From Prauserella alba (GTDB taxonomy: Bacteria; Actinomycetota; Actinomycetes; Mycobacteriales; Pseudonocardiaceae): a stretch of DNA of 64,000 nucleotides. Below, piece by piece: positions 21,676-44,432 of the stretch. A program made the position numbers and the translations under genes. Under the pieces are notes generated by a model. It saw only the letters and a list, made by a program, of their open reading frames with translations. It was not told the DNA's origin and searched no databases. Where the stretch lies: the NCBI RefSeq assembly GCF_024171735.1, contig NZ_JAMTCH010000005.1, forward strand, positions 310,001 to 374,000, read 5' to 3'. Every line of letters starts with the position of its first letter. The first letter of the stretch is position 1.

Positions 21676-21710
21676 GCGGTACACACCTACCTGTCTCCGA
21701 GTAGCAGCCC

Positions 21711-22994: not shown

Positions 22995-23402
22995 GGACGT
23001 CTCGCGACATCACAACCTACGGGCCATGACCCCACCTGACCCGGTCGATTGTAGCGGTCGCGGCTGCACAATCGCCGCAGGTCAACGCCGCGCATGCAGC
23101 TGCGATGCAGAATGCCGATGCTCGCAACCGCGGCGTCCGCCGCGCCACCGCTGCAGTCTTCCGCCGATACCAGTTGAAACCGGTGGGCGAGCGGTACAAC
23201 TCCACCGTTTCCTGTATCGAAGCCCACTATCTCGTCGACTGAGTAAGGCGCGGCAGATCAGATGAGGTCAAGGTCAACCAATCCCGGTCGTCGCAACGCC
23301 CACCGAGCCATGCGCCTGGTCAAGGTGCGGTTGGAAGTTGGTTCGCGGTGTCCGCGTAACGTCTCGACCGACTGCCGTGGAGACGTGAGAACGGGGCCTG
23401 TA
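22995..23402. other. Divergent control region between XRE regulator and HAD gene
   Basis: About 400 bp with no convincing gene; short frames on both strands lack ribosome binding sites. It must carry the promoters of both flanking genes. The motif TGCAG-N5-ATGCAG at 23095-23110 is described separately. No hairpin terminator was noticed. Confidence 0.5.
23095..23110. promoter_or_regulatory. TGCAG-N5-ATGCAG motif, copy 1
   Basis: TGCAGCTGCGATGCAG lies about 100 bp upstream of the XRE regulator start at 22994. The same TGCAG-N5-ATGCAG pattern occurs at 25423-25438, about 77 bp upstream of the second XRE regulator. The shared position makes it a candidate operator for this pair of regulators. 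Confidence 0.45.
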
Positions 23403-24059
23403 GTGATCCATTCGGTGGTGTTCGATGTCGGCGAGACGCTGCTCGACGACACACGTGAGTTCGGAGCCTGGGCTGACTGGATGGGTGTCCCGCGGCACAC
23501 CTTCTCTGCAGTGTTGGGGGCCGTCACGGCGGCGGGGCACAACAACGCGATGACCTTCGAGGTCCTGCAGCCGGGATTCAACCTCGATGTCGAACGTCAA
23601 CGCCGCGAGGACGCAGGCGCGGGTGAGCAGATCGATGAAGACGATCTCTACGACGACGTCCGGCCAGCCCTGACAGACCTACGCGACGCGGGCTTGTGGG
23701 TGGGGGTCGCCGGTAACCAGACGTCCAAGGCTGCGGGCTTACTCCGAGCGTTGAGCCTGCCGGTTGACGCGATCGCGACATCCGGACAATGGGGCGTCGC
23801 CAAGCCTGACCCCGGCTTCTTTGCCAAGGTGGCCGACCTCGCTCCAGGAGACCCGGATGGGGTGCTGTACGTCGGCGATCATCGTGACAACGACGTAGTC
23901 CCCGCCCGCAGGGCCGGCCTGAAGCCAGTGCTCATTCGCCGCGGACCGTGGGGCTACCTGTGGTCGGGCGATCCCGCTGTGCAGCGCGACGCGGAATGGG
24001 TCATCGACTCGCTCACGGAGCTTCCCGCGCTGATCAGCGGAAGGACGGGGCGCGGTTGA
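23403..24059 (+). CDS. HAD-family hydrolase (phosphatase-like)
   Basis: About 218 residues. Motif I is FDVGETLLDD with nucleophile Asp8 (Gly replaces the usual general acid Asp two residues later), motif II/III region VAGNQTSKAAG and GVAKPDPGFF with the conserved Lys, and motif IV VGDHRDNDVVPARRAG with two Asp. This fits HAD phosphatases acting on small phosphorylated metabolites. GTG at 23403 begins directly at the conserved beta strand; GTG 23385 is possible. A rare TTA (Leu) codon is at 23739-23741. Divergent from the first XRE regulator and convergent with the second. Confidence 0.86.
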   Translation: MIHSVVFDVGETLLDDTREFGAWADWMGVPRHTFSAVLGAVTAAGHNNAMTFEVLQPGFNLDVERQRREDAGAGEQIDEDDLYDDVRPALTDLRDAGLWVGVAGNQTSKAAGLLRALSLPVDAIATSGQWGVAKPDPGFFAKVADLAPGDPDGVLYVGDHRDNDVVPARRAGLKPVLIRRGPWGYLWSGDPAVQRDAEWVIDSLTELPALISGRTGRG

Positions 24060-24086
24060 CGATCCGTGTGCGCTGCCCTCCTGCTG

Positions 24087-25346
24087 TCAGGGGAGCCCGT
24101 GGAGACCGTGTTGGAGGGCGCGGCCGTGTGTCAGGTGCAACTGGGTAACGATCGCACGTACTTGGGGGTGGGCACGGACGTGCTCTGGAGCGACCGACTG
24201 AGCCGTGTGCAGGGCATCCAGTGTTTGCTGTGACTGGCCTGCGAGGTGGTAGGCGCGGGCCAGGTCGATGTAGAAGTGGGACCGACGCTCAGCAGGCAGA
24301 TCATGGGAAGGCTGCCATCCCGTGGCGGTACGCAGCGCAGCTCCGACGTCACCCAGTTCTACAGCCAGTGACAGCTGGTGAATGCGCACCGAGGTCGGGC
24401 CGAACACGGTCCCCAAGTGGACGCCTTCGTTGACCCGCTGAGCGACGTGCATGGCCTCGTCGATGTGTGCGCGGGCGTCGACTGCTTGTCCCCCGCGCGC
24501 GGCGAGCACGGCGGCACGCATGTGCAAGCTTCCATAGGTCGCCGCTGCCGTTTCTGACTCTGACGGCGACATACGATCGGCGGCGTGAACCAGCATGGTG
24601 CGGCCCGCGGCAAGGTCACCGGAAGCAAAGAACACCTCGCCACGCACATACGATCCGCTGGCGTGAATGAGTTCGTCGCCGGTCAACACGGCTGCGTCGC
24701 CGAGTAGGCCGATGATGTGGGCTGACAAGTCGTAATAGCCATACTTGTCAGCAAGGGCATCGGCCCCGCGATAGACCTGGACGAGCAACTGCGCGTAGCG
24801 CCGACGCTGGTCACCAGAGCTCGCCGCGACAGCGCGGTACAGCTCGGTCAACAGGACGGGTACCTCGATGGCGAGCGCACCATAGTTCGCTCGAAGTCGC
24901 TTGTCCACGATGGACGCAACGACCGGTCGTAGCTGCTCGAGCGACCGAATCGGCCCGTCTGCCGGGAAGTCCCGCGTGGACAACACGCGACGTAGTGCGG
25001 GGATCTGCGAGGGCACGATATCCGCAGTGCGTTCCCGCGGTGCCGCGAGTTCCGACGAAGACCACCGGTCCTCGGCCTTGCTCTGCGGCGGAGCCACGCC
25101 CGGCATGTTCTCGTTCGCCGGACCGGACTGGGCATTCGGACTCAATACATCGATGAGGTCCGCCACCGACATACGCAGCACCTGAGCAAGGCGGGGCTGT
25201 TTACGTGCAGGTGGCGTGGTCTGTCCGGACTCCCATCGATAAACCGTCGACCGGTCGGTGCCCATACCGACGGCCGCAGCGAGCTGCTCCTGAGTCAACC
25301 CCATCGCCCGGCGCCGGCGCACCAGCGCTGTGCGCTTGTCTGGCAC
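24087..25346 (-). CDS. XRE-type HTH regulator with TPR-like C-terminal part (second copy)
   Basis: A 419-residue protein with N-terminal XRE HTH (LTQEQLAAAVGMGTDRSTVY, about residues 17-36) followed by a Pro/Ser-rich linker and helical repeats (ARAHIDEAMHVAQRVNEGV, YIDLARAYHLAGQSQQTLDA). It parallels the regulator at 21711-22994 in size, layout and control motif. It is divergent from the 13-gene operon starting at 25762 and is the best candidate for its regulator. Confidence 0.86.
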   Translation of the reverse strand: MPDKRTALVRRRRAMGLTQEQLAAAVGMGTDRSTVYRWESGQTTPPARKQPRLAQVLRMSVADLIDVLSPNAQSGPANENMPGVAPPQSKAEDRWSSSELAAPRERTADIVPSQIPALRRVLSTRDFPADGPIRSLEQLRPVVASIVDKRLRANYGALAIEVPVLLTELYRAVAASSGDQRRRYAQLLVQVYRGADALADKYGYYDLSAHIIGLLGDAAVLTGDELIHASGSYVRGEVFFASGDLAAGRTMLVHAADRMSPSESETAAATYGSLHMRAAVLAARGGQAVDARAHIDEAMHVAQRVNEGVHLGTVFGPTSVRIHQLSLAVELGDVGAALRTATGWQPSHDLPAERRSHFYIDLARAYHLAGQSQQTLDALHTAQSVAPEHVRAHPQVRAIVTQLHLTHGRALQHGLHGLP

Positions 25347-25761
25347 CTGCAGCCCCTCTCACCGTCATTCCAGCGAATCTCGGTCGCATCTTCGCAGGTC
25401 ATCTCTCCGCGCGCAGCAACCGTGCAGCATTCATGCAGCCATTGTGCTCTGGTCCAGCCCGCAGCTTGCCGCTTCACTGATCGGCGAGCGCCCTGCGAGT
25501 GGCGACACACGGCCGCTGCGCCGACCTGGCGCTCTCCCCTCCGCACGGGGATTCCTTGAAAACACAAGGGGACATCGTGAGACGCTCCTGCCGATCCGCG
25601 ACCGCGCACCTGTTGCGACAGCGCTCGCACCACAGGCATGCCTGCGATGCTCTACCCCTCGGCACACATGTCGCACACAACGGTGCACACAGCCGCACCC
25701 ACGGGTCCACCCGAAGGGGTCATGCGGTCCCTCACTCACTGCTGGCCTCGATAGGACCCGC
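25347..25761. other. Divergent control region of XRE regulator and 13-gene operon
   Basis: About 415 bp. Open frames run through it on both strands without ribosome binding sites; I see no gene. It must hold the promoters for the second XRE regulator and for the large plus-strand operon. It contains the motif TGCAG-N5-ATGCAG at 25423-25438. Confidence 0.5.
25423..25438. promoter_or_regulatory. TGCAG-N5-ATGCAG motif, copy 2
   Basis: TGCAGCATTCATGCAG lies 77 bp upstream of the XRE regulator start (25346) and 324 bp upstream of the operon start (25762). It repeats the pattern and orientation of copy 1 at 23095-23110 with an unrelated 5-bp spacer. Confidence 0.45.
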
Positions 25762-26055
25762 ATGACTGGGCACAGCGCTGACGAGACGCACCAGCAGGTC
25801 GATCGTCTGATCTCGCTCGGCTGGTCCTTCATTGGTTCGCCGACGCAGGGATTACTTCTGCGCAGTTACGACACCGCGGACGCGGTCGACACCCTCGAGA
25901 TTCCCGTCACCGGCGACTGCCTCGCCTGGCGCACCCACGTCGATCGCACCGGCGAGCGCGTCACTTGGCGACGCCGTGGCGCGCTCGACGAGTGTGTAAC
26001 CGCTCTGCTGGAACTGCCCGAACCTGAACCGTCGACGTCGGAGCAGTCATCGTGA
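25762..26055 (+). CDS. Small unknown protein, first gene of the 13-gene operon
   Basis: A 97-residue protein without a recognised domain. It appears alpha/beta: an N-terminal helix (HQQVDRLISLGWSF), several strands (GLLLRSYDTADAVDTLEI, CLAWRTHVDRTGERVTWRRR) and an acidic/Pro-Ser tail. ATG at 25762 follows a long stretch with poor coding appearance, so longer in-frame versions are unlikely. Its stop overlaps the start of the next gene by 4 bp. It may be a small accessory or carrier-like protein, but no phosphopantetheine motif is present. Confidence 0.6.
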   Translation: MTGHSADETHQQVDRLISLGWSFIGSPTQGLLLRSYDTADAVDTLEIPVTGDCLAWRTHVDRTGERVTWRRRGALDECVTALLELPEPEPSTSEQSS

Positions 26056-27287
26056 ACGCCTCCAACCTTGTTGCGTCCGGCGAGGGATACTCCGCGCCCG
26101 AGACAGGGTCGTTGGGATCGCCAGTGGTGATCATCATCCCGGGCGCGACTTACCGCTATGTCGACGAGGTGGCCCGCCAGTCCGAAGACGCCGTGCACGC
26201 GGCCGTCGGCGAACGCACGCCTGTGCGCACCGTGCTCGTGGACACCAGCGACCCCACCGACACCCGTGCGCGTGAGGCGTTGCTGTACTCGTCGACGAGC
26301 TGCGCCCGGCACGTCGTCGCTCTTCCGCAAGCCGGGTGGGGCGCGGCCGTGGCGCGAGGTTTCCGGCACGCCCTGCATCTCGAGGCGGGTCTGGTCATCG
26401 TCGCCGACGCCGACACGCCCACCGGCGAGGCCGCTTCCGTTGGCCAGTTTCCGCTGGCCACCGCGATCACAACATTGTGCGAGCAGAGACTGCCTGGCGT
26501 GGTGTGCAGTCCGGTGGCGCGACCGTGGTGGCAGCGGATGTTCGCTGCCCATGCCCTTCGGCCGCTGATGGCTCCTGGCCTCGGGCTCACGCTGGTAGAT
26601 CCCCAGGTGCGCACGCTGGTGCTCTCGCCCCGTGCGGTTCAGATCGCGCTCAACCCACGCTGGCGGCTTGACACGCCCGGTGGGCACGGGCTCGCCGTCC
26701 TGACGGCCGCACGCCTCGCCGGCATGGACGTGGATCAGGGCCCATCGCGTACCCCGAGCGTCGATATGGCTCAGCTCGCCTACGACGTCGGAGACCTCGT
26801 CGACCGCGACCGCGGGATCGGACTTCTGCAGACTGCGCTCGCCACGGCGCGACTTGCGCGCGCTGTGTCCGCTCACGCGGTCCCGCCGTGGATCACCGAC
26901 CTCGTACCAGGCAACGTCAACGGCCACGAGGTCCTCGACACCGCGCTAACCCACGCCGCATACACCCGCGCCCAAACCGCTCCATCGGGTCCAACGACGC
27001 CGAGTGCCGGTGACTGGCCTGGCCCTCTGATCGAGGCGTGGCACGCGGCCAGAGGGCTCGCACCTGATCTCACCGCGATCGCGAGTTGGCTGTGGGACGC
27101 CTACGCGCACCGTGTTCATACCTGGCTGCGCACCGCGGTCCGCCTCGACGCACACCCAGCGCGGCTATGGCGGTCAGTGATCGCCGCCAACACCGCGTTC
27201 CTGACCGCGACCGCTACTCCCATCGCCCCCACCACACCGCTCACTTCGGAGAACCATGAACGCCACCGACTACCCCATGCCAGCTGA
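26052..27287 (+). CDS. GT-A-like glycosyltransferase-related protein
   Basis: A 411-residue protein. It begins with a nucleotide-sugar-transferase-like Rossmann start (VVIIIPGATYRYVDEVARQ) and has VIVADADTPTGEA, a DxD-like acidic motif expected to hold the metal and nucleotide sugar, then ALNPRWRLDTPGGHGLAVL. The layout resembles the GT2/GT81 glycosyl-phosphoglycerate synthases. The C-terminal ~130 residues are helical and Thr/Pro-rich at the end. It overlaps both neighbours. A sugar- or glucuronate-transfer step in the pathway is the likely role; the acceptor is unknown. Confidence 0.65.
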   Translation: MNASNLVASGEGYSAPETGSLGSPVVIIIPGATYRYVDEVARQSEDAVHAAVGERTPVRTVLVDTSDPTDTRAREALLYSSTSCARHVVALPQAGWGAAVARGFRHALHLEAGLVIVADADTPTGEAASVGQFPLATAITTLCEQRLPGVVCSPVARPWWQRMFAAHALRPLMAPGLGLTLVDPQVRTLVLSPRAVQIALNPRWRLDTPGGHGLAVLTAARLAGMDVDQGPSRTPSVDMAQLAYDVGDLVDRDRGIGLLQTALATARLARAVSAHAVPPWITDLVPGNVNGHEVLDTALTHAAYTRAQTAPSGPTTPSAGDWPGPLIEAWHAARGLAPDLTAIASWLWDAYAHRVHTWLRTAVRLDAHPARLWRSVIAANTAFLTATATPIAPTTPLTSENHERHRLPHAS

Positions 27288-27702
27288 TGGCCACTGGCGT
27301 ATCCGCGCCCACCTCGTTATCCACGCCCACGAAGACACGAGCGGCGAGGCTCACGTCGCCGTCGTCCGTTCCGAAGACCGAACCTGGGTGCTGCCCGGAG
27401 GCCCCGTTGATTCGGCACCAGTGAAGCGATCTCTGCTCGAGCACGTTCGGAATCAAGCCGGGGTCGAGGTACCTGACTCTGCGCTGTCCTGGGTCGGCAC
27501 GTTCGAAATCGCAGACGACCCGAACGTACTCGTGCTGGTGTGGGAAACCAGCCTCGCCCGGACCATGTTCTCCACGAACGAGGACTGCCAGTGGGGCGAC
27601 TACGCCGACCTGCGTCAGCCACCCGGCGAAGTCACCGCGTTCGACACCGATGCCACCGGCTCGCACAGCCTCGCCCACCTCATTCCGGCCCGCCACCCCT
27701 GA
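27256..27702 (+). CDS. Nudix-fold protein with degenerate Nudix box
   Basis: A 148-residue protein with the Nudix beginning (LVIHAHEDTSGEAHVAVVRS, WVLPGGPVD) and the strand after the box (VGTFEIADDPNVLVLVWETS). In the box (G-x5-E-x7-REUxEExGU) only the leading Gly and trailing A-G-V are kept; the catalytic RE-x-x-EE is replaced by LLEHVRN. It probably binds, rather than hydrolyses, a nucleotide or nucleotide sugar, or uses altered chemistry. It overlaps the GT-like gene by 32 bp. A 90-bp gap follows before the epimerase gene, which may hold an internal promoter. Confidence 0.72.
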   Translation: MNATDYPMPADGHWRIRAHLVIHAHEDTSGEAHVAVVRSEDRTWVLPGGPVDSAPVKRSLLEHVRNQAGVEVPDSALSWVGTFEIADDPNVLVLVWETSLARTMFSTNEDCQWGDYADLRQPPGEVTAFDTDATGSHSLAHLIPARHP

Positions 27703-27792
27703 CCGACGGCGGGGCGGTGGCGCGCCCCTCCCCCCCGACCGCCCACCGCTCCGCCGTCCCCATGCCACGACCAGTTCTCGGAGGTTCACGAT

Positions 27793-28800
27793 ATGCCGCA
27801 TGCCGCGCGCGCTTTCCGCGCCTTAGCGGACAGCTCGATACGTGCTGTGGTCACCGGAGCGGCGGGATTCATTGGCGGGCACCTCACCGCCCGGCTCTTG
27901 GCCGAAGGGGCCGACGTGTGTGGCCTCGACCGGCGCCATCCGGCCAGCGATCTGGTGGCGCGACGCAACTTGGCAGAGGGATGCGGCCAATCGCGGTTCA
28001 GCTTTCACCACGTTGACCTCCTGACGCCGGGATGGGAGCCGGTGTTGAACGGTGCGGACGTCGTGTTTCACCTCGCCGCTGTACCCGGTGTTCGCCCCTC
28101 GTGGGGTGCGGCGTTCGATGAGTACGCGTCCTGCAATGTCATCGCCACGCAACGAGTCATGAACGCGGCGATCCACGCGCGCGTTCCTCGAGTGGTGGTC
28201 GCGTCGTCCTCGAGCGTGTACGGCCGTACCGACGGCCGGCCCAGCACCGAGAACGCCGCCACGCGACCGCTATCACCTTACGGCGTCACCAAGCTGGCCA
28301 CCGAAGCACTCGCGCTGGCGCACGCCGGGCGGGCCGACAGCCCGACGACGGTCGCCGCCCTGCGTTACTTCACCGTGTATGGGCCCGGGCAACGCCCCGA
28401 CATGCTCATCGGCCGTGTGCTGTCGGCCGCGCTCGAAGGCACACCGCTGACCGTCTACGGCTCCGGTGAGCAACGACGCGACTTCACCTACATCGACGAC
28501 GTCGTCGACGCGACGCTCGCGGCCGGACGCTCCCACGCTAGTGGCGCGTTCAACGTCGGCGCGGGCGCGGCGACCAGTGTCAGTGAGGTGCTGCGCGTCG
28601 CCGAACAGCTCACCGGCCGCCCGGTCCCTACTCGGCCGGCGCCGGCCGCTGATGGCGACGCTCCAGGGACGTTGGCGGATTCCACGCTCGCCAGGGACGT
28701 CTTTGGCTGGCGAGCCCGCGTCGACCTCCAGGCGGGTATGCGGCGACATCTGAAATGGCACTGCAGCCGACACGCCACCCGGTGCGCCAGCACCGCCTGA
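27793..28800 (+). CDS. NAD-dependent sugar epimerase/dehydratase (extended SDR)
   Basis: A 335-residue extended SDR. It has the cofactor motif TGAAGFIGG (21-29), DVVFHLAA, the SSS-VYG catalytic Ser/Thr region, the YxxxK pair in SPYGVTK, and the RYFTVYGPGQRPD segment typical of UDP-glucose/UDP-glucuronate 4-epimerases. It probably interconverts or modifies a nucleotide sugar, plausibly the UDP-glucuronate made by the last gene of the operon. GGAGG at 27780-27784 precedes the ATG. Codon 11 is a rare TTA (27823-27825). Confidence 0.87.
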   Translation: MPHAARAFRALADSSIRAVVTGAAGFIGGHLTARLLAEGADVCGLDRRHPASDLVARRNLAEGCGQSRFSFHHVDLLTPGWEPVLNGADVVFHLAAVPGVRPSWGAAFDEYASCNVIATQRVMNAAIHARVPRVVVASSSSVYGRTDGRPSTENAATRPLSPYGVTKLATEALALAHAGRADSPTTVAALRYFTVYGPGQRPDMLIGRVLSAALEGTPLTVYGSGEQRRDFTYIDDVVDATLAAGRSHASGAFNVGAGAATSVSEVLRVAEQLTGRPVPTRPAPAADGDAPGTLADSTLARDVFGWRARVDLQAGMRRHLKWHCSRHATRCASTA

Positions 28801-28837
28801 ATCCCGTCCCCGCTTGAAGAAAGGGAACCGATACTGC

Positions 28838-29818
28838 ATGTTGTCGTTAGCAGCTGACGAGGCGACGCGCTTGTTCGCCCGGACGTGCGCGTCGGTATCG
28901 CGGCGGGGCCGCGACGTAGCTCCGCGGGGAATGTCCACCCGAGAAGTTCTGGGCGCGGAGCTGGTCCTCCGAAACCCGCGCGAGAGGTTGGTCGATGCCG
29001 CGCCTGCGCGCGTGCTGAACCCCGCGTTCGCCGCTGCGGAAGCGTTGTGGATCTTGTCCGGTTCCGACGGGGAATGGATCTTCACCTTCAACGAGCGGTT
29101 GCGCCGGTTCACCGACTACGGCCGACTCCAGGGGGCGTACGGGCCCCGACTGCGGCGATGGCGGGGCGAGGTTGACCAGCTCGACGCGGTGCGGCGCAAG
29201 TTGTTGTCGGACCCGTCGACCCGGCAGGCGGTGATCACGCTGTTCGACCCCGCCACTGATTTCGCCGGCTACCGGGATGTGCCCTGCACGTTGGGCTACC
29301 GGTTCTCGCTACGTGACGGCGCCTTGCACATGTTCACCAGCATGCGCAGCCAGGACGCGTGGCTGGGTCTGCCCTACGACCTGTTCACCTTCACGATCCT
29401 GCACGAGCTCCTCGCGGGCTGGGTCGACGCTGAACTGGGCGAGTACCACCACGCGGTCGATTCGCTCCACCTCTACGAGAACCACCTGAGACCTGCCGCG
29501 GGCCTTCCGTCTCCATTGGGCCCTCGGTCGGTGATGCCGCCGCTGGCCGTGCCGTGGCGCGACTTCGACGCGTTGCTGACTCAAGTCATCGCCGGTGAAC
29601 CGGTCGGTCACGTGGGGTGGGACGACTTCGCAGTCGTGGTGGCCAGCTACCGCCGGTGGAAAAGCGGGAACCGCGACGCCGCCCAAGCCACCATCGCCAA
29701 CAAGAGTGGCCCGCTGGCTACAGCGCTGCGGGATTGGTACGCGCTGTTGACCGATCGTCCCGAGACGATCGCCGCCGCGCCCGCCACGCCGAGTTCGCCA
29801 AAGGAGGTCGTGGCGTGA
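28838..29818 (+). CDS. Thymidylate-synthase-like enzyme, probable (d)CMP 5-hydroxymethylase type
   Basis: About 326 residues, thymidylate synthase superfamily. The nucleophile Cys150 is in DVPCTLGYRF; the phosphate-binding RS-x-D is R170-S171-D173 in MRSQDAWLGLPYDLF; the ribose-binding HLYENH is near 211. The residue that recognises the uracil ring in true ThyA (Asn in LGLPFN) is Asp181 here. The same Asn-to-Asp change marks enzymes that hydroxymethylate cytosine nucleotides (T4 dCMP hydroxymethylase, MilA). The His after the catalytic Cys is Thr. The start is taken at ATG 28838; a TTG 24 bp upstream is possible. Codon 4 is TTA (28847-28849). The next gene, a carbamoyltransferase, could act on the hydroxymethyl product. 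Confidence 0.82.
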   Translation: MLSLAADEATRLFARTCASVSRRGRDVAPRGMSTREVLGAELVLRNPRERLVDAAPARVLNPAFAAAEALWILSGSDGEWIFTFNERLRRFTDYGRLQGAYGPRLRRWRGEVDQLDAVRRKLLSDPSTRQAVITLFDPATDFAGYRDVPCTLGYRFSLRDGALHMFTSMRSQDAWLGLPYDLFTFTILHELLAGWVDAELGEYHHAVDSLHLYENHLRPAAGLPSPLGPRSVMPPLAVPWRDFDALLTQVIAGEPVGHVGWDDFAVVVASYRRWKSGNRDAAQATIANKSGPLATALRDWYALLTDRPETIAAAPATPSSPKEVVA

Positions 29819-31527
29819 GCAGGCGATCGGCGCGCGTGGTTCTGGGGTTGTGCGCGTTCACACACGATTCGGCCGCGGCGCTCATCGTGGACGGACACCT
29901 CGTCGGGTTCTGCGAAGAAGAACGGCTCAGCGGGATCAAACATGACCGGTCATACCCAACCCACGCTATCGCGTGGCTATTGGATGCCGCCGGACTGTCC
30001 ACTCACGACATCGACGTCGTGGCCTACAACTTCGTTGCCGCCCGATACCTGCCTGCGGCCGTCGCCTCGGCGCGCTACGTGGTACGTCGTGACACCGCCG
30101 CGCGTGCTCTACCGCGTGCGCGCTCGTTCGTGAAGGTCGCCTACCGCACTCACGACCGTCTACAACAGCTTCGAGCTCGGTTTCCGCACGCGTGTGTGGT
30201 CGCGGTGCCGCATCACCGGGCACACGGGTTGTACGCCTTCGCCGCCTCGGGCCGCTCCCGGGCAGCCGTGCTGGTTGCCGACAGTCTCGGCGAAACCGCC
30301 ACCACCAGCACCGCCCTGGCGGATTCCTCCAGCGAGCGGGTGCACTATCAACAACTCGCAGCGCTGTCCGATCCAGCCTCGCTCGGATACGTCTACGGCG
30401 CTGTGACCGAGCATCTCGGCTGGCGGCGCGGCGACGAGGAAGGAACGGTGATGGCCCTGGCCGCGCTCGGCGATCCGGCTCGATTCCGGAACCTGTTCTC
30501 CGACGCGGTGCGGCTCACCGAGACGGGCTTCACCGTAGACCCGACGTTGTTTCACCTTCGCATGTTGTCCGGGCGAGCATCGCGGATCACGCGCGCGTTC
30601 GTCGAGCGCGGATGCCACGCCCGCCGCCCCGAAGAACCGGTCGAGGTGGTGCACCGTGATCTCGCCGCGGCCCTGCAGGAACGCACCGAGCAGGTCATGC
30701 TTCACCTCGCCTCGCAGGCGTCCCGCCGCTCGGGACAGAGCACGCTCTGTGTGGGCGGCGGGGTCGCGATGAACTGCGTCGGCATCGGCCGCATCGCCGA
30801 GAGCGACCTGGTCGACGAGGTGATGGTTCCTCCGGCACCTGGTGACTCGGGCACTGCCATCGGCGCCGCGATCGAACAATGGGTGCGGGCGCGGGGGACG
30901 CTGCCGACCGGGGTTGCTGGCGCCTGCTACCTCGGGCCGAGCTTCCCTGAGCCCGCTATCCCGGCTGCCACCGGGCTGCGCGTGCGTGCCGTGGATCGTC
31001 CGGCCCGCAAGCTGGCTCGAGAACTCGCCGACGGGACGATCGCGGGTCTGTTCACCGGCAGGCTCGAGGCGGGCCCACGGGCGCTGGGGCACCGGTCCAT
31101 CCTCGCCTCTCCGCTTGCCCCTGGTGTGGTCGATCGGCTCAACGCGACGGTGAAGTATCGCGAATCCTTCCGGCCCTTCGCGCCGGTCGTGCTCGCCGAC
31201 AAGGCCGTGGACTACTTCTCGCTGCGACAGCCGTCCCCGTTCATGTCGATGGCGGCCCCCGTGACCGATCTGGCCCGGCAGCTCGTCCCGAGCATCGTGC
31301 ACACCAATGGCACCGCCCGCGTACAGACCGTGGACGCCGAGCAGAATCCGCTGTTGGCCGAGGTGCTGACCGAGTTCGCGGCTATCACGGGAGTTCCCGT
31401 GCTGATCAACACCTCGCTCAACATCAAGGGCAAGCCCATCTGTGGCACTCCGGAGATGGCGTTGGAATGCCTGACCGAGTCCGGCATCGACGCGCTCCTG
31501 CTCGACGATCGGTGGGTGACGCGATGA
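29815..31527 (+). CDS. O-carbamoyltransferase (TobZ/CmcH/NodU family)
   Basis: A 570-residue carbamoyltransferase that moves the carbamoyl group of carbamoyl phosphate, through carbamoyl-adenylate, to a hydroxyl group. Visible are the Kae1-like start LCAFTHDSAAALIVDG with His17-Asp18, CEEERLSGIKHDRSYP, VPHHRAH, DEEGTVMALAALG, CVGGGVAMN and the C-terminal domain EAGPRALGHRSILASP and PVLINTSLNIKGKPI. Such enzymes decorate nucleoside, aminoglycoside and beta-lactam antibiotics. A perfect AAGGAGG (29801-29807) precedes GTG 29815, which overlaps the stop of the thymidylate-synthase-like gene. That coupling suggests it carbamoylates the hydroxymethyl pyrimidine made by the previous enzyme. Confidence 0.92.
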   Translation: MSRRSARVVLGLCAFTHDSAAALIVDGHLVGFCEEERLSGIKHDRSYPTHAIAWLLDAAGLSTHDIDVVAYNFVAARYLPAAVASARYVVRRDTAARALPRARSFVKVAYRTHDRLQQLRARFPHACVVAVPHHRAHGLYAFAASGRSRAAVLVADSLGETATTSTALADSSSERVHYQQLAALSDPASLGYVYGAVTEHLGWRRGDEEGTVMALAALGDPARFRNLFSDAVRLTETGFTVDPTLFHLRMLSGRASRITRAFVERGCHARRPEEPVEVVHRDLAAALQERTEQVMLHLASQASRRSGQSTLCVGGGVAMNCVGIGRIAESDLVDEVMVPPAPGDSGTAIGAAIEQWVRARGTLPTGVAGACYLGPSFPEPAIPAATGLRVRAVDRPARKLARELADGTIAGLFTGRLEAGPRALGHRSILASPLAPGVVDRLNATVKYRESFRPFAPVVLADKAVDYFSLRQPSPFMSMAAPVTDLARQLVPSIVHTNGTARVQTVDAEQNPLLAEVLTEFAAITGVPVLINTSLNIKGKPICGTPEMALECLTESGIDALLLDDRWVTR

Positions 31528-32591
31528 CGAGAACCACCACCGCGTCCGGGCTGCGCATCGGATACAGCCTCTGGGGCTTCCTCGGACCTGGTGTCACCGA
31601 CACCCCGGACGGCGGGCGCAGCCACCGCCATACCTTGATCGACGGGTTGATCGCCGCCGGGCACGAGGTCGTGTTCCTCCAAGCCAACCGGGACCTCACC
31701 GAAGCGGGCACCGACCTACGCGAGACCTACACGTGGGCCGACGGACTGCCCGAAATCGACGTGCTCATCCTCGAATGGCGTTGGCCCATCCCCGGCCGCA
31801 ACACCACACCCTGCGGCCAACCGGGCCACACATGCGACCTGCATCGTCAGCGGGAACTGCTCGATTACTACACCGAACAGGGCTTGCCGACGATCCTCTG
31901 GGACAAGGACCAACGGCTCCCCGCCGAGGATCACCTGCGCCAGCACCCGAGCATCACCGTGGCCGAACCAGCTCTGCACCCCAGCCCGGGTGCCCACAGC
32001 CTGTTGTTCCCGATCGCCGACGAGGTCCTTGACTCCTTCGACCCCCGTGCGGTCGCCGCCGGCGCCCGGCAGTGGCCGTTGGTGTACGTCGGCAACCAAT
32101 ACGATCGCGACGACGCGTTCGACACCTATTTCGCCCCGGCCGCCGCCCGGCATGCCCACCGCGTCGCCGGGAAGTGGACCAATACCAACCGGTGGCCGCA
32201 CGTGCGGTTCGCCGGCAGAGTCCCGTTCATCGTCGTCGAGGACCTCTACCGTGACGCGACCTCGACCGTACTCCTACTACCCGAACGATACGCACGCCGT
32301 GGACACATGACACAGCGAATCTTCGAAGCGGTCCTGGCCGGATGCCTGCCTCTGACTCCCGTCACTATCCGGTCCGCCTCGCGGTTCGTCCCGACCAGTC
32401 TTCACGTCACCTCGGGTAGCGACACGGCCGACCGTGTCTCGCGACTGATGGACATGCCTGAGCGGCATCGGGCGGACCTACTAACGGCATGCGCCGCACG
32501 GCTGGAACTGTTTCGCCTCAGTACCCAGCTCGATCACCTCGACGCGCTCTTGCCTGCTGCCCGAACCGAGCTGACAAGCCTGACACCGTGA
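31524..32591 (+). CDS. GT-B-like glycosyltransferase-related protein
   Basis: A 355-residue protein. The N-terminal half resembles a GT-B acceptor domain (LRIGYSLWGFLGPGVTDTPD, SHRHTLIDGLIAAGHEVVFL), and the C-terminal half carries LVYVGNQYDRD, VPFIVVEDLYRDATSTVLLL and RGHMTQRIFEAVLAGCLPL, the family signature where Glu contacts the donor sugar in GT4/CgeB-like enzymes. ATG at 31524 overlaps the carbamoyltransferase stop (ATGA). Probably transfers a nucleotide-activated sugar in this pathway. Confidence 0.68.
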   Translation: MTRTTTASGLRIGYSLWGFLGPGVTDTPDGGRSHRHTLIDGLIAAGHEVVFLQANRDLTEAGTDLRETYTWADGLPEIDVLILEWRWPIPGRNTTPCGQPGHTCDLHRQRELLDYYTEQGLPTILWDKDQRLPAEDHLRQHPSITVAEPALHPSPGAHSLLFPIADEVLDSFDPRAVAAGARQWPLVYVGNQYDRDDAFDTYFAPAAARHAHRVAGKWTNTNRWPHVRFAGRVPFIVVEDLYRDATSTVLLLPERYARRGHMTQRIFEAVLAGCLPLTPVTIRSASRFVPTSLHVTSGSDTADRVSRLMDMPERHRADLLTACAARLELFRLSTQLDHLDALLPAARTELTSLTP

Positions 32592-32638
32592 ACACTCGTC
32601 AACACCGCCCACTCGGATCCGATTCCGGAGGGAACCCC

Positions 32639-33154
32639 GTGCAGAAGATCGCCATCTGTGGCTGTGGCGGATCAGGCAAATCCGCCCTCGCCCGCCAGCT
32701 CAGCACCCGTCTTGATCTCCCCGTCACCCACCTCGACATGGTCTATTACGACCAGGACTGGAACCCGCTGAGCCAGGAGGAGTTCGCAGCCGTCCAGCGA
32801 CAGCTGGTCGCAGGCGAGGAGTGGATTCTCGACGGCAATTACGCCTCGACCATGCCCATCCGGCTCGCCGCAGCCGACGTCGTGATCTTCCTCGACATCC
32901 ACCCACTGGTGTGCCTGTGGGGCATCCTGAGGCGCCGCAGGCAACACCGCGCCTCGGACGAGCTCTCGCGCCACCTGCGCGGGAACCTGAACTGGGGCTT
33001 CGTCAAGTACATCCTCGGCTACCGCAAGACCATGCGCCCGAAAGTGCGGGCGCTGCTCGACGAACACGCCGCGGGCACCGTCGTCACCCTCACCAGCCGC
33101 CGCGCCGTGCGTCGCTACCTTGCCACCCTCTCCACAGGCCCACGCCGATCATGA
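32639..33154 (+). CDS. P-loop nucleotide/small-molecule kinase (adenylate-kinase-like, FlaR type)
   Basis: About 171 residues. Walker A is CGCGGSGKSALARQL near the N-terminus; WILDGNYASTMPIRL and VIFLDIHPLVCLWGILRR follow, as in DNA topology modulation/FlaR-like kinases. GTG 32639 is preferred because GGAGGG lies 6 bp before it; GTG 32588 (overlapping the previous stop) is possible. The family is related to adenylate and shikimate kinases, so phosphorylation of a nucleoside or sugar intermediate is plausible. Stop overlaps the methyltransferase start. Confidence 0.8.
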   Translation: MQKIAICGCGGSGKSALARQLSTRLDLPVTHLDMVYYDQDWNPLSQEEFAAVQRQLVAGEEWILDGNYASTMPIRLAAADVVIFLDIHPLVCLWGILRRRRQHRASDELSRHLRGNLNWGFVKYILGYRKTMRPKVRALLDEHAAGTVVTLTSRRAVRRYLATLSTGPRRS

Positions 33155-33963
33155 CTGAATCCACCAACCCGTTCCTCGACGAGCGCCGCCGTGACGCGCT
33201 CTACGGGGACGCGAGCCGGCTCACGCAACGCACCGCAGCGCTGCATAGCGCGAAGTTCGAGGGTGAACCGGTTGCGAGTGTCATCGCGGGTTTCGGACAA
33301 GTTGGCCCCGGTCATCTCCTCGACGTCGGATGCGGACGAGGTGGTACGACAGCACACCTCGCGCGGCGATGGTGGCCGCGGCGGGTCACCGCGCTGGACG
33401 CGTCACCAGCTTTGTTAGCGGAAGCCCGCCGCCGCGTCTGCGACAACGTTCCCGACGGCGAGGCCCGCGTCGGTTTCGTCGCGGCCGACTTCCACGACAT
33501 TCCACTGCCCGACGACGACTGCGACGTCGTCGTCGCCGCGTTCTGTCTCTACCACTCGCCGGCACCGGAAACCGTGCTCGCCGAGTTTCGCCGCTGTCTG
33601 CGCCCGGGCGGCCGGGCCATCCTCGTCACCAAATCCGCCGACAGCTACGCGACGCTCGACGAGCTTGCCGCCGCGTCCGGGCTCGCCCCCGACGCCCGTA
33701 GCCGGTCGTCGCTGTATGACAGCTTCCACAGCGGCAACGCGGAGTCCGTGGTCTCGGAGGAGCTTCGTGTCCAGGCCGTGCGTCACGACCGCCATCGGTT
33801 CCAGTTCGCTGACGCCGACCATCTCGCCGCGTACCTCGCGACGAACCCCAGGTACTCCCACCATGCCCCGGAAAGCCTGGCAGAACGGTTCACTTTCGTC
33901 CTGAATGGACACGGAGTAACGACCGAGTCCACCGTGACCTACGTCGTGGCGAGCGCGACATGA
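33151..33963 (+). CDS. Class I SAM-dependent methyltransferase
   Basis: A 270-residue methyltransferase with motif I LLDVGCGRGGTTAHLAR, the acidic LDASPALLAEARRR ribose-binding turn, ADFHDIPLPDDDCDVVVAAF (motif II/III) and LRPGGRAILVTKS. It resembles UbiE/small-molecule O- or C-methyltransferases. It overlaps both the kinase gene and the next gene by 4 bp. A rare TTA codon (33415-33417) is present. The substrate is presumably the cluster's product. Confidence 0.88.
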   Translation: MTESTNPFLDERRRDALYGDASRLTQRTAALHSAKFEGEPVASVIAGFGQVGPGHLLDVGCGRGGTTAHLARRWWPRRVTALDASPALLAEARRRVCDNVPDGEARVGFVAADFHDIPLPDDDCDVVVAAFCLYHSPAPETVLAEFRRCLRPGGRAILVTKSADSYATLDELAAASGLAPDARSRSSLYDSFHSGNAESVVSEELRVQAVRHDRHRFQFADADHLAAYLATNPRYSHHAPESLAERFTFVLNGHGVTTESTVTYVVASAT

Positions 33964-34739
33964 CACCACGCACCTTCCGTAAGACGTTCCGCGACGCCGC
34001 CAGCGCCAGTGCGGCCATCGAACACCACCGATGGCTCTCCGAGCTCGACGCAGACGTGGATCTACCCGTGGTGGTTCAGAACATCGGCACCGTGGTCGAC
34101 TTCGAGTTCGTTACCGGACCCACCGCGACACCACGAGACGCCGCCGTCGTGGCCGAGACGCTCGGGCGAGTGCACCGAGCCGCGTGGGACGCCGGGCTGG
34201 ACCGCGTCGACGTGAACCAGCCGTATCTCCTACCGAGCGGGCACACGATCTCCGGATTCGCCCCGCCGCGCCGGGACCGCCTGCGTACGGCCCTCGCGTC
34301 CGTGTCGAGCCCACTGTCCGGCGATATCGTCGACCGCTGGCTCGCCGCGGATCTACCCGCTGCCCTGTACAAGGACGCCAACCCACGCAACGTGATCATC
34401 TCGCCCACGCGCGGTCCCGTCCTGGTCGACTTCGACACCCTCACACTCGCCCCCATCGGCTACGACCTCGCGAAATTCATCGTCACCCTCGCCATGACCT
34501 TCGGTGACCGCCCCCGCGAGCTAGTGCTCAACACACTCGAGACCTACCGCACAGCGATGGGAATCAGCGCGGCCGAATGCCCGCTGGAATACGTCCAAGT
34601 GTGGGCCGAACTCCACCACCTACTCACCGCCCCCTGGATCGGCCGCCACTACACCCACAGCTGGAAACACACCCGCCCCTGGACCGCTGGTGACGTCGTC
34701 GTAGCCGCCCGCACACCACTGCCATCAAGGAGTCGATAA
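33960..34739 (+). CDS. Aminoglycoside-phosphotransferase-like kinase (short N-lobe)
   Basis: A 259-residue APH/kinase-fold protein. The catalytic loop is YKDANPRNVIIS (Asp as base, Asn for metal) and the metal loop VLVDFDTLTLAPIGYDLAKF. The N-lobe is short and lacks an evident Gly-rich loop. Such proteins phosphorylate small molecules, often the product of an antibiotic cluster as self-protection. It overlaps the methyltransferase stop by 4 bp. A second APH-like gene follows two genes later. Confidence 0.76.
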   Translation: MTPRTFRKTFRDAASASAAIEHHRWLSELDADVDLPVVVQNIGTVVDFEFVTGPTATPRDAAVVAETLGRVHRAAWDAGLDRVDVNQPYLLPSGHTISGFAPPRRDRLRTALASVSSPLSGDIVDRWLAADLPAALYKDANPRNVIISPTRGPVLVDFDTLTLAPIGYDLAKFIVTLAMTFGDRPRELVLNTLETYRTAMGISAAECPLEYVQVWAELHHLLTAPWIGRHYTHSWKHTRPWTAGDVVVAARTPLPSRSR

Positions 34740-34743
34740 GCGC

Positions 34744-35406
34744 ATGCCCGTCACCACCGAGCTCATCCTCGCGCGCCACGGCGAGGCCCACTGCAACGTC
34801 GCCGGCATCGTCGGTGGCGAAGCGACCTGCACAGGCCTCACCGACCAGGGCCACGCTCAAGTCCGCCGGCTCGCCGTCCGCCTCGACCAGGAACACACCA
34901 CCGCGCCGATGAGTGCCCTCTACACAAGTCCACGACGACGGACCGTCGACACCGCCGCGCACCTCGCGGACCAGCTGAACCTCGAAACCCGCGTCGAGCC
35001 CGCCTTGCGCGGCCTCGACCACGGCGAGGCCGACGGACGGCCGTGGACGGCGATCAAGCGACGCTTCGGTGGCCGACCCCAGCAGTACCCGCATCGGCCC
35101 ATCGCCGCCGGGGCGGAAACGTGGAACGCGTTCATCTCGCGCTGCCGTGCCGTGCTCCGCAGGATCCTCGACAAGCACGAGGGCGAACGTGTCCTCATCG
35201 CGGCCCACGGCGAAACCATCGAAGCCAGCTTCGCGTTGTTCCTCCCACTCCCGCTCGACGACACCGAGCTGGCAGGACAGATCACCGGTCATTCGTGCTT
35301 GACGCGGTGGCAGCGTCACCGCAACACGTTCGGGCACGACGTCTGGATGTTGGCGGGCCACAACGACACGAACCACCTTCGCTCACCGATGGAGGTGATC
35401 ACGTGA
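34744..35406 (+). CDS. Histidine phosphatase family protein
   Basis: A 220-residue phosphatase with the catalytic LARHGEAHCN (His12), LYTSPRRRTVDTA, LDHGEADG and the second His in VLIAAHGETIEA. It is of the phosphoglycerate-mutase/CobC type. In this operon it may remove the phosphate from a nucleotide intermediate or reverse a kinase used for self-protection. GTGA overlap with the next gene. Confidence 0.9.
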   Translation: MPVTTELILARHGEAHCNVAGIVGGEATCTGLTDQGHAQVRRLAVRLDQEHTTAPMSALYTSPRRRTVDTAAHLADQLNLETRVEPALRGLDHGEADGRPWTAIKRRFGGRPQQYPHRPIAAGAETWNAFISRCRAVLRRILDKHEGERVLIAAHGETIEASFALFLPLPLDDTELAGQITGHSCLTRWQRHRNTFGHDVWMLAGHNDTNHLRSPMEVIT

Positions 35407-36254
35407 GCCACGAATCCGACAAACTTGCGCGCCTCCGTGACCTCGCGGAGTCCGCGCTCCACACGCCCGTAGAGATCGCTACCGGTCAGCTCGGTCATGC
35501 CACCGGCACCGTGGTGAAAATGCGAGGACGCGGCGTCGATCTCATCGCCAAGCTGCACCGGTCACCGTCCCTGCATGAGCGGGAGGTGCACGCCTACCGC
35601 GCGTGGACACCGCACCTTGGTTCGGCTGCCCCGGAGCTCATCGCCGTAGCACCCGAGCTGCACGGGATCGTCATCACCGCACTCCCAGGAACGCCGCTGG
35701 ACACCCAATCGCTAGGCCCCGACGACGAACGCGACGCGCATCGCGATGCTGGCCGCATCCTCGCACGACTGCATTCCCTTCCCGCTCAAGCCGCCGCCAG
35801 CGACATGACCGACTACTTGGCCGACCGTGGCGAACACTGGCTCGCTCGGCTCGGCCACCACATCACCCAGCACGACGCCCACCTCGTACGCGAACACCTT
35901 CGTCTTCTCCGATCAACCACGCACGCCCGCGTCGCGCCTTGCCATCTGGACTTCCAACCACGAAACCTGTTGTGGCACACCGACCGACGCACCCGCGTCA
36001 TCGACTTCGAGAACAGCCGCGAAGACCTCGCCGCCCGAGACCTGGCACGCCTCGCGACACGAATATGGCCCCAGCGGCCAGACCTGCGCGAGGCGTTCCT
36101 CGACGCCTATGGCCCGCTGGACACCAACGACACCGCCGTGCTGCACCACGTCACGGCCCTCGAAGCCGTCACGAGCATGGCGCACGGACTCCAACACGGA
36201 GACGACTACCTCGTCGACCTCGGCCGCCGACTCCTCGCCAACCTCGGCCACTGA
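35403..36254 (+). CDS. APH-like phosphotransferase
   Basis: A 283-residue kinase-fold protein. The N-lobe has VEIATGQLGHATGTVVKMRG and a Lys in DLIAKLHRS; the C-lobe has the catalytic CHLDFQPRNLLW and the metal loop TRVIDFENSREDLAARDLARL. It resembles aminoglycoside/homoserine-type phosphotransferases. GTG 35403 overlaps the previous stop. Paired with the phosphatase upstream, it may phosphorylate the pathway intermediate or the finished product. Confidence 0.82.
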   Translation: MSHESDKLARLRDLAESALHTPVEIATGQLGHATGTVVKMRGRGVDLIAKLHRSPSLHEREVHAYRAWTPHLGSAAPELIAVAPELHGIVITALPGTPLDTQSLGPDDERDAHRDAGRILARLHSLPAQAAASDMTDYLADRGEHWLARLGHHITQHDAHLVREHLRLLRSTTHARVAPCHLDFQPRNLLWHTDRRTRVIDFENSREDLAARDLARLATRIWPQRPDLREAFLDAYGPLDTNDTAVLHHVTALEAVTSMAHGLQHGDDYLVDLGRRLLANLGH

Positions 36255-36275
36255 GCATTGACGGGAGCACACCTC

Positions 36276-37589
36276 ATGGAAACCGTGACCGTCCTCGGCG
36301 CCGGCTACGTCGGACTAACCACCGCAGCATGCCTGGCCCACCTCGGCCACCGCGTCCACGCCATCGACGCGGACGCCGCGCGGGTTCACCGGCTCCAAGC
36401 TGGGGAGATCGACCTGCTCGAACCCGGCCTTCCCGAGATGGTCCGCGCACACCAGCAGACCGGTCACCTCAGTTTCTCCACTGACCCCGGGAGCCGGATC
36501 GGCGGTTCCGACGCCGTCTTACTCTGCCTGCCAACGCCAGCCCGTGTCGATGGTTCCGCCGACCTCGCAGCCGTCCGGAGTTGGCTGCCACATCTGCGTC
36601 GACACCTCTCGCCCGGCCGGCGGATCATCCTCAAATCCACCGTTCCACCAGGCACCCAACGGCAGCTCGTCACCGTCCTCGATCGCCCCGACATCGCGAT
36701 GATCAGCAACCCCGAATTCCTCCGCGAAGGACACGCGATTCACGACTGGCTGAACCCCGACCGCATCGTCATCGGCGCCGACGAACCCGAATCGACCCGC
36801 TACCTGTCCTCCCTCTACACCAGCCTCGACGCCCCAGTCGTCGAAACCGACCCGACAAGCGCCGAGCTCATCAAGTACGCGGCGAACACCTTCCTCGCGC
36901 TCAAGATCACCTACGCCAACACCCTGGCCGAGCTCTGCGAACACATCGGCGCCAACATCACCGACGTCCGCACCGGCATCGGACACGACCCCCGCATCGG
37001 AAACACTTACCTGGACGCAGGCCCCGGCTGGGGCGGTCCATGTCTACCCAAGGACGTCCGGGCACTGGTATCGACGGGCACCCGCACTACGACGGACCTC
37101 GGACTGCTCCACGCCCTGCTCGAAACGAACGCATATCACCAACGACGCATCGTCACCCTTGTCGAGCAACTCCTACCGCGTCCGCTCACCGGTGCGCGGG
37201 TCGCCGTACTTGGTCTCGCCTTCAAGGCCGCGACGAACGACCTGCGTGACTCCCCAGCTCTACATATCGCCAACCTGCTGGCGGCACGTCGAGCCCACGT
37301 CACCGCGTATGACCCCGCTATCGACGCCTCCGCCACGCCGACAGCCGGTCAGCTCACACTCACGGAAAGTGCAACCGCGGCAGTCGCGGGCGCCGACGTG
37401 GTCCTCGTACTGACGGAATGGCCGGAATTCGCCGAACTGCCGTGGCACCACCTTGCTAGGGACATGCGAGGCGACGTCGTGCTCGATACTCGTGGAAAAC
37501 TCGACCGTACGCTCCTGCGAGGGGCCGGTCTTCACCTCCGGACGCTCGGTGAACCGTTCAGCGAGATCGCGGCAGCAAGAACCGCATAA
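36276..37589 (+). CDS. UDP-glucose/GDP-mannose 6-dehydrogenase family
   Basis: A 437-residue NAD-dependent dehydrogenase that oxidises C6 of a nucleotide sugar to the acid. Motifs: GAGYVG near the N-terminus, LKSTVPPGT, NPEFLREGHA, conserved Lys200 in ELIKYAANTFLALK, and the catalytic Cys256 in GWGGPCLPKD. GGGAG precedes ATG 36276 by 9 bp. Last gene of the operon; its likely product UDP-glucuronate could feed the SDR epimerase and the glycosyltransferases. A TTA codon lies at 36519-36521. Confidence 0.9.
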   Translation: METVTVLGAGYVGLTTAACLAHLGHRVHAIDADAARVHRLQAGEIDLLEPGLPEMVRAHQQTGHLSFSTDPGSRIGGSDAVLLCLPTPARVDGSADLAAVRSWLPHLRRHLSPGRRIILKSTVPPGTQRQLVTVLDRPDIAMISNPEFLREGHAIHDWLNPDRIVIGADEPESTRYLSSLYTSLDAPVVETDPTSAELIKYAANTFLALKITYANTLAELCEHIGANITDVRTGIGHDPRIGNTYLDAGPGWGGPCLPKDVRALVSTGTRTTTDLGLLHALLETNAYHQRRIVTLVEQLLPRPLTGARVAVLGLAFKAATNDLRDSPALHIANLLAARRAHVTAYDPAIDASATPTAGQLTLTESATAAVAGADVVLVLTEWPEFAELPWHHLARDMRGDVVLDTRGKLDRTLLRGAGLHLRTLGEPFSEIAAARTA

Positions 37590-38614: not shown

Positions 38615-38646
38615 TACACCTCCTCGGATCGATCCACGTCCTCAGG

Positions 38647-38691
38647 CGCTGGGGTGGGCACGACGCGACCAGCGCCGCGCCCACCCCAGCG
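38647..38691 (-). terminator. Hairpin between dioxygenase and FAD-synthetase-like gene
   Basis: Perfect 13-bp arms CGCTGGGGTGGGC (38647-38659) and GCCCACCCCAGCG (38679-38691) with a 19-nt loop. It lies 7-51 bp downstream of the dioxygenase stop on the minus strand and before the next gene, so it is an intrinsic terminator or attenuator; no U-run is obvious. Confidence 0.65.
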
Positions 38692-38697
38692 GGCCGG

Positions 38698-41119
<2,422 letters not shown>

Positions 41120-41160
41120 CGCCTACTCCTTTTCGTGGTTGGAACGGTGGGATGCGGCCC

Positions 41161-41721: not shown

Positions 41722-41757
41722 CGCGGATACCTCCATGCCGCATCGACGTGTGGAACC

Positions 41758-41797: not shown

Positions 41798-41804
41798 GAA
41801 GCGA

Positions 41805-42770: not shown

Positions 42771-44432
<1,662 letters not shown>

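Follow-up and report, generated by a model that had tools for sequence, protein, structure and literature searches.

A conserved actinobacterial gene cluster suggests a pathway to sugar-bearing hydroxymethylcytosine

In a 64,000-nucleotide stretch of Prauserella alba DNA (contig NZ_JAMTCH010000005.1, positions 310,001 to 374,000; the whole stretch is referred to below as the window, and its positions are numbered from 1), a run of plus-strand genes at 25762-37589 contains a conserved enzyme set. The set looks like a bacterial biosynthetic cluster in which hydroxymethylcytosine formation is combined with a glycosyltransferase of the phage type, and it suggests a sugar-bearing cytosine compound that has not been described. 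This reading is carried by a member of the thymidylate synthase (TS) family with the residues of a cytosine-nucleotide 5-hydroxymethylase, and by a relative of T4 DNA beta-glucosyltransferase (BGT). We know of no other cellular pathway that pairs a dCMP-type hydroxymethylase with a relative of a phage DNA beta-glucosyltransferase. No paper describing such a cluster was found in a literature search, which covered few subscription journals.

The genes of the run, which lies in a genome of 5.6 Mb, are labelled A-M here. Stop and start codons of many of them overlap; C is separated from D by 90 bp, D from E by 37 bp and L from M by 21 bp, while many other pairs overlap by a few bases. Families were assigned from Pfam, NCBIfam and PDB sequence searches, with PHROGs added for B, C and F. 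The start of E was moved to the ATG at 28838, giving a protein of 326 aa, within the range of 315-328 aa seen in homologues that were called in full. These searches bore out most names in the first-pass annotation, which was made from the sequence alone: the short-chain dehydrogenase/reductase (SDR) epimerase, the TS-family enzyme, the NodU/TobZ carbamoyltransferase, the P-loop kinase, the methyltransferase, two APH kinases, the histidine phosphatase and the UDP-glucose dehydrogenase. The features are as follows.

25762..27702, plus strand: A, B and C, upstream neighbours outside the conserved core, without Pfam or NCBIfam matches.
27793..28800, plus strand: D, SDR protein, UDP-glucuronate 4-epimerase-like (Pfam Epimerase 7e-53; best PDB match MoeE5 5.1e-78, next 8.4e-58).
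28838..29818, plus strand: E, putative TS-family cytosine-nucleotide 5-hydroxymethylase with a dCMP-type residue set; sole TS-family match in the genome.
29815..31527, plus strand: F, O-carbamoyltransferase of the NodU/TobZ/GdmN/NovN family (Pfam 2e-61 and 3e-42; PDB NovN 8e-82; Nol-like phrog_1601 4e-102).
31512..32591, plus strand: G, GT-B glycosyltransferase related to T4 BGT (profile, fold and hhalign).
32639..33154, plus strand: H, P-loop kinase of PRK08118 type, possible nucleotide kinase (NCBIfam PRK08118 7e-48, below its cut-off).
33151..33963, plus strand: I, S-adenosylmethionine-dependent methyltransferase (Pfam Methyltransf_11 6e-24).
33960..34739, plus strand: J, APH-fold kinase with YKDxNxRN and DxD motifs (Pfam APH 1e-11).
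34744..35406, plus strand: K, histidine phosphatase, alpha-ribazole phosphatase-like (Pfam 5e-35; TIGR03162 2e-22, below cut-off).
35403..36254, plus strand: L, second APH-fold kinase, with HLDxxPRN and DFE motifs (Pfam APH 8e-21).
36276..37589, plus strand: M, UDP-glucose 6-dehydrogenase, an optional member (TIGR03026 1.6e-123).

The first line of evidence is the distribution of the set. E was searched for in 390 genomes of the family (35 with a TS-like match at 1e-20, nine of which, the window's included, reach at least 58% identity), in 396 genomes across the phylum (four matches, one a further close relative) and, by pattern, in GTDB contigs (four loci, three of them close). G was searched for in 386 genomes of the family and in 394 across the class, with 12 positive in each sample and the window's own genome in both. 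An E orthologue is present at 19 distinct loci, namely the window, L002-L004, L034-L041 (L117 continuing L040) and L142-L148. All 19, from at least five actinobacterial families, have matches to D, E, F, G and H. I and J are each found in 18, I being missing from Glycomyces (L003) and the contig of L146 ending before J, and K and L are each found in 13. D is weak or broken in places (two pieces in L040 and L142; 38-39% identity in L145 and L146), and in the genome of L040/L117 (G300) part of the set lies at one contig end and part at another, with G and I each in two pieces. Gene order is constant across the loci except that D stands at the opposite end in L003, L142 and L144, and F lies directly 3' of E in all 18 loci that have both on one contig.

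Such recurrence of D-J in near-constant order, at 19 loci of many genera, indicates a gene run beyond chance. The conserved unit is thus D-J (27793-34739), usually with K-L. This is smaller than the 13-gene operon first claimed for 25762-37589: the overlapping plus-strand run is real, but it is not one unit, since none of the other 18 loci has a match to A, B or C and M occurs in five of the 19, plus two broken loci. A look at the neighbourhood of the TS-like and carbamoyltransferase pair, as the first-pass annotation had proposed, found conserved rather than scattered neighbours. Among the first 12 loci, whose flanks of up to ~10 kb were clustered (the loci from the class sample stand outside this clustering), no family outside D-M was common to more than three. 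When plasmids were searched with E, all matches among the 20 of 188 records listed were below 60% identity. As a separate observation, a DddA-like double-stranded-DNA cytosine deaminase domain (Pfam 2e-20) is encoded directly 3' of the cluster in Amycolatopsis palatopharyngis (L002:15118-15900).

The second line of evidence is the residue set of E. Its best PDB match is the CMP 5-hydroxymethylase MilA (5.8e-35), as against 1.7e-15 for the best thymidylate synthase, which is in keeping with the modified-cytosine pathway proposed at first pass. The catalytic residue is C150, and D181 occupies the site of TS Asn177. According to the available part of one report (PMC8670742), Asn177 of Escherichia coli TS reads the base and is mostly Asp in cytosine-modifying systems; Asp is found at this site in all 19 E orthologues. 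The ribose preference of MilA rests on Ala176 and Lys133, and their change to Ser and Arg turns the enzyme to dCMP, as stated in the accessible text of PMC5175136. None of the 19 orthologues has either MilA residue: the Lys133 site is Arg in all of them, and the Ala176 site is Ser in 17 and Gly in L003 and L144. No Trp is present at the TS Trp80 site in the 12 orthologues read there (L or M). Residues were taken from the TS alignment for 11 orthologues, from the tree alignment for L036 and from direct reading of the sequences for seven. The residues of E are those of the T4 gp42 set (Cys, Asp177, Ser167, Arg126, His207/Tyr209 and no Trp80), the sole difference being the Trp80 site itself, which is I in gp42 and L or M in E. 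For want of Ala176 and Lys133, the MilA-type CMP assignment made earlier finds no support. Judged by these residues, E is probably a cytosine-type pyrimidine hydroxymethylase, with dCMP a more likely substrate than CMP.

Seventeen related TS-like loci without the cluster (L042-L058), in which neither F nor G was found at 1e-4, served as controls. Thirteen of their enzymes have the Ala and Lys pair and four do not. A strong MilB-type neighbour is present in nine of these loci, all nine carrying Ala and Lys, and a weak match in a tenth; the one control-locus hydrolase that was checked matched MilB in the PDB at 2.1e-60. With the same queries, no MilB-type hydrolase was matched in 18 of the 19 cluster loci, and the remaining locus, L038, gave one weak match (31%, 1.4e-4), in agreement with the first-pass remark that a CMP hydrolase of this type is not seen; none was found in the window's own genome, in a search that had no positive control. 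It may be added that in the nine control loci (L042, L043, L044, L047-L051 and L055) TS enzymes with MilA-type residues adjoin MilB-type hydrolases, and that several of them also have ThiD-like and TenA-like genes (by reading of the sequence), as bacimethrin-like clusters in the family.

E was also considered as a housekeeping thymidylate synthase, and this was rejected: the genome has ThyX, and the canonical TS residues Asn177, His147 and Trp80 are replaced in E by D, T and L. Since ThyX is present and E is the only TS-family match in the genome, E would not be needed for dTMP, the role that the first-pass annotation had named as speaking against its pathway. In a tree of 65 sequences (three of 68 rows, V_L064, V_L074 and V_L086, were dropped, and viral locus L078 gave no full open reading frame), E forms one clade (100/100) among phage hydroxymethylases. 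The backbone is weak (86/46, 95/76) and T4 gp42 is a very long branch; on this tree E may or may not have come from phages. A second TS-like gene, without the conserved Tyr209, lies just upstream of D at L002:3961-5040, L034:15252-16028 and L035:15167-16231, where it adjoins a large divergent gene of ~1,024 aa.

The third line of evidence concerns G. In Pfam it has only a sub-threshold Glyco_trans_1_2 match, and a single-sequence viral search gave nothing useful. When viral homologues were included in its profile, T4 BGT (in two sequence versions) was the only PDB match at E<=1, at 6.8e-9, and hhalign of this profile against T4 BGT gave 93.6% probability and a score of 57.7, with a maximum of 23.6 among 20 shuffled BGT sequences. 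For the AlphaFold model of G (pLDDT 89), Foldseek placed T4 BGT at ranks 2, 6, 7, 8, 9 and 12 among other GT-B enzymes. Arg269 and Glu272 of BGT are paired with the identically numbered Arg and Glu of G (counted on the alignments), which are invariant in 13 of 13 homologues. By sequence profile and modelled fold, G is a relative of T4 BGT, with an acceptor predicted by homology; the earlier label of a GT-B-like protein holds for the fold and is corrected to this more specific relationship.

The company kept by G points the same way. There are 23 distinct G-positive genomes, 18 of them with a TS-like enzyme (16 E-type and two other, G904 and G952); in one of the 16, G300, the E-type enzyme is on another contig than G. 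The other five (G259, G163, G383, G148 and G995) have no TS-like enzyme in the DNA examined, and their clusters are broken or incomplete, G itself being unbroken in G163 despite this. Five of the seven viral loci with G have a TS-like gene, and a G relative is present in two of the 28 viral loci found through E (in the locus DNA examined). Viral and cellular homologues of G thus usually adjoin hydroxymethylases. A module of G, TS-like, NDK-like, radical-SAM-like and DnaQ-like genes (by reading) is common to a viral contig (L092:3183-9591) and a bacterial chromosome (L149:9297-13763), and may be a mobile nucleotide-modification cassette.

The remaining enzymes fit around these two. The best PDB match of D, MoeE5, is a UDP-glucuronate 4-epimerase, and D is expected from its sequence to turn UDP-glucuronate into UDP-galacturonate. 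Together, D and the UDP-glucose dehydrogenase M agree with the uronic-sugar donor proposed at first pass; a second UDP-glucose dehydrogenase is encoded elsewhere in the genome, so that M can be optional. The best solved relatives of F are NovN and GdmN, which carbamoylate natural-product scaffolds. A carbamoyloxymethyl step, also put forward earlier, is plausible, and pairs of TS-like enzyme and carbamoyltransferase make 5-carbamoyloxymethylcytosine in viruses, as reported in the part of PMC8670742 at hand. On the viral contig L060 (4382-8858), a carbamoyltransferase-like gene, a kinase-like gene (by reading), one small gene and a TS-like gene stand in a row that resembles the published 5-carbamoyloxymethylcytosine systems.

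H had no PDB match at 0.01, and the PDB search with L gave nothing useful. The motifs YKDxNxRN and DxD of J are invariant in nine of nine aligned sequences, as are HLDxxPRN and DFE of L in eight of eight. The view that the kinases and the phosphatase serve purely for self-protection loses ground, since J equals the pathway enzymes in conservation; K and L, in contrast, do not. A known defence system was considered and rejected: when the ten proteins D-M were submitted to PADLOC, only I (mad2, 5e-22) and, weakly, M (mad2, 4e-4) were matched.

In the pathway that we propose, E would hydroxymethylate C5 of a cytosine mononucleotide to give 5-hydroxymethyl-dCMP (or -CMP). UDP-glucuronate would come from M or another UDP-glucose dehydrogenase and be converted by D into UDP-galacturonate, and G would put the uronic sugar on the 5-CH2OH group, as BGT does with glucose. 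F would then carbamoylate a hydroxyl of the base or the sugar, I would methylate, H, J and L would phosphorylate, and K would remove phosphate. The product would be a glycosylated, carbamoylated 5-hydroxymethyl-(deoxy)cytidine small molecule, made by a chromosomal pathway built on the hydroxymethylcytosine toolkit of T-even phages; in our opinion, the chances of this are about even. The families and motifs of the cluster genes, and their co-conservation, are read directly from the sequences, and from them we infer every substrate, the order of steps and the free-metabolite nature of the end product.

It should be noted that several observations weigh against this reading. K and L are missing from six of the 19 loci (one of the six being cut by a contig end), and M from 14. 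No transporter family is common to more than two of the 12 loci with clustered flanks, which is unusual for a secreted product. F scores 279 bits with NovN (phmmer) and 189 bits with the best phage carbamoyltransferase among the rows listed (tblastn, 26-33% identity), two figures that come from different programs. The kinship of G with BGT leans on viral intermediates, as judged from the profiles: with a profile built from cellular sequences only, T4 BGT comes up at E=0.37, after a SurE match at 0.13 that looks like chance, and hhalign without viral homologues gives 5.5% probability. Only the C-terminal part of BGT, an enzyme with Asp100 as catalytic residue, aligns with G; moreover, other GT-B enzymes match the G fold equally well, and the Foldseek match at rank 1 is not BGT.

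One rival is a route like that of mildiomycin and blasticidin, in which hydroxymethyl-CMP would be cut to free 5-hydroxymethylcytosine; G would then be a cytosylglucuronate-type synthase that transfers a uronate to N1. Like the mildiomycin (milA/B/C) and bacimethrin-type clusters, the present one has a TS-family enzyme of the cytosine-nucleotide hydroxymethylase kind, for which MilA is the nearest solved relative, and, as in mildiomycin, a supply of UDP-uronate; MilC uses UDP-glucuronate according to the text available of PMC11784345, and L038 has its weak MilB-like match. Unlike those clusters, it has a carbamoyltransferase and a BGT-like enzyme, its hydroxymethylase has dCMP-type residues and lacks the Ala and Lys pair that all nine hydrolase-bearing control enzymes possess, and a MilB-type hydrolase, carried by nine of 17 control loci, is missing from the 18 cluster loci other than L038 and was not found in the own genome (the search without a positive control). 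The lack of this hydrolase, together with the BGT kinship of G, an enzyme that resembles one glycosylating a hydroxymethyl group, argues against such a route and against the glucuronate transfer to cytosine N1 envisaged at first pass; we consider it unlikely. A polyoxin-like pathway, with E a UMP C5-modifying enzyme like PolB and F acting on a sugar or amino-acid moiety (compare carbamoylpolyoxamic acid), would likewise join a TS-like UMP C5 methylase and carbamoyl chemistry in one pathway (the available portions of PMC5003785 and PMC4029187). It is, in our estimate, highly improbable, because E is of the cytosine type, with Asp rather than Asn at the base-reading site and Thr at His147, and because no peptide-type enzymes, and no peptidyl part, are among D-M. 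Equally little credit is due to a cell-surface or exopolysaccharide sugar pathway in which E serves an unrelated nucleotide need. UDP-glucose dehydrogenases, epimerases and glycosyltransferases are common in polysaccharide loci, but Pfam gave no polysaccharide polymerase, flippase or other membrane-protein family match among D-M, the E-F-G adjacency is conserved, and G relatives travel with hydroxymethylases in viruses.

The dCMP-type residues of E, the BGT relationship of G and the nucleotide-type kinase H also agree with hypermodification of genomic DNA, possibly in defence: hydroxymethyl-dCMP would be raised to hydroxymethyl-dCTP by H and a nucleoside diphosphate kinase, incorporated, and then glycosylated and carbamoylated within the DNA by G and F, much as T-even and carbamoylating phages do. 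NDK-like and DnaQ-like genes accompany the related G-TS module of L092 and L149, and a viral carbamoyltransferase acts on 5hmdCTP and on DNA, as described in the accessible sections of PMC8670742. Against this, no non-core family recurs in more than three of the 12 clustered loci, hence no accompanying polymerase or nuclease, small-molecule tailoring is what the methyltransferase, the phosphatase and the APH-fold kinases suggest, and the PADLOC result is confined to I and, weakly, M. We give this explanation a low probability. As in T-even phages, E has the gp42 residue set, G is akin to BGT in profile and fold, and the two genes are close together, here with F between them; unlike in T-even phages, the cluster is chromosomal, has a carbamoyltransferase, epimerase, methyltransferase, APH-fold kinases and phosphatase, lacks replication genes, and is expected to use a uronate instead of glucose. 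Compared by gene families, it shares with the viral 5-hydroxymethylcytosine carbamoyltransferase systems found by MetaGPA (PMC8670742, in its available part) a TS-like gene adjoining one for a NodU/TobZ-family carbamoyltransferase; it differs in that F scores best with NovN and GdmN, in the added BGT-like and sugar-nucleotide genes and in being non-viral. Since no replication genes are conserved with the cluster, a small molecule is favoured over DNA modification; the lack of a conserved transporter argues against a secreted product and leaves some probability to a DNA- or nucleotide-level reading, which gains from the related module of L092 and L149. Some actinobacteria might have, on the chromosome, a system like that of T-even phages, by which 5-hydroxymethyl-deoxycytosine is made, glycosylated and carbamoylated either as nucleotide or in DNA. 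Its role could be to mark the cell's own DNA, epigenetically or for defence, or to provide an antiviral nucleotide; system and role taken jointly, this is a rather slim prospect.

The glycosylated, carbamoylated small molecule remains our preferred product. The cluster links phage DNA hypermodification to natural-product chemistry and offers a clear starting point for the isolation of cytosine nucleosides of a new, glycosylated and carbamoylated class. Its enzymes are new candidates for the modification of hydroxymethylcytosine, and whether this base is glycosylated outside viruses can now be tested directly.

The genes upstream of D are local neighbours of the cluster. Searches of Pfam (E<=0.05), NCBIfam (0.05) and PHROGs (0.01) found nothing for B or C, and the names given to them at first pass, a GT-A-like protein and a degenerate Nudix protein, are unproven. 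B was rejected as a proven GT-A enzyme, there being no family match and the single-sequence AlphaFold model having failed (pLDDT 39); B was found in only two of the 21 genomes searched, the window's own and G258, of the same genus. At the same chromosomal site, G258 matches window 16247-21932 at ~93-94% and carries A-B-C, then a remnant of D and then a different gene set; of the cluster genes only H is kept, further on. Membership of A-C in the pathway, also assumed at first pass, was rejected, as they are absent from the other 18 loci and present in G258 apart from the core D-G. Another member of the genus, G259, has F-M at 93.7% nucleotide identity, but the reading frames of F and G are broken and I is split in the gene calls. 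It lacks D, E and the beginning of F, a transposase-looking gene (by reading of the sequence) stands at the break, and a whole-genome search for E found none at 1e-20. The states of G258 and G259 indicate that the site exchanges and loses gene sets. Window 16247-28000 appears as an exchange hotspot, where A-B-C and a portion of the left flank persist in G258, with other cargo after the D remnant.

Upstream of A, at 23262..25346, a HAD hydrolase (plus strand) and an XRE/TPR regulator (minus strand) form a possible regulatory pair; HAD relatives with an XRE-like gene (by reading of the sequence) adjoin the cluster in L142 and L143, and are likewise found in G258. Further to the left, window 9546-15654 contains the type I restriction-modification genes HsdR, HsdS and HsdM, near a tRNA-Ser/tRNA-Arg pair at 8118-8343. 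GC content falls there from ~70% to 63%, a possible left border of a genomic island. Window 15815-17818 encodes a protein with a type VII secretion system secretion-signal domain; the small genes adjacent to it have paralogues in G258, and the arrangement resembles a polymorphic toxin/immunity array. On the other side of the run, the minus strand of window 37829-44432 carries FAD synthetase, catechol 1,2-dioxygenase, HpaB-type monooxygenase, flavin reductase and FMO-like genes, an aromatic-catabolism cluster apparently unrelated to D-M.

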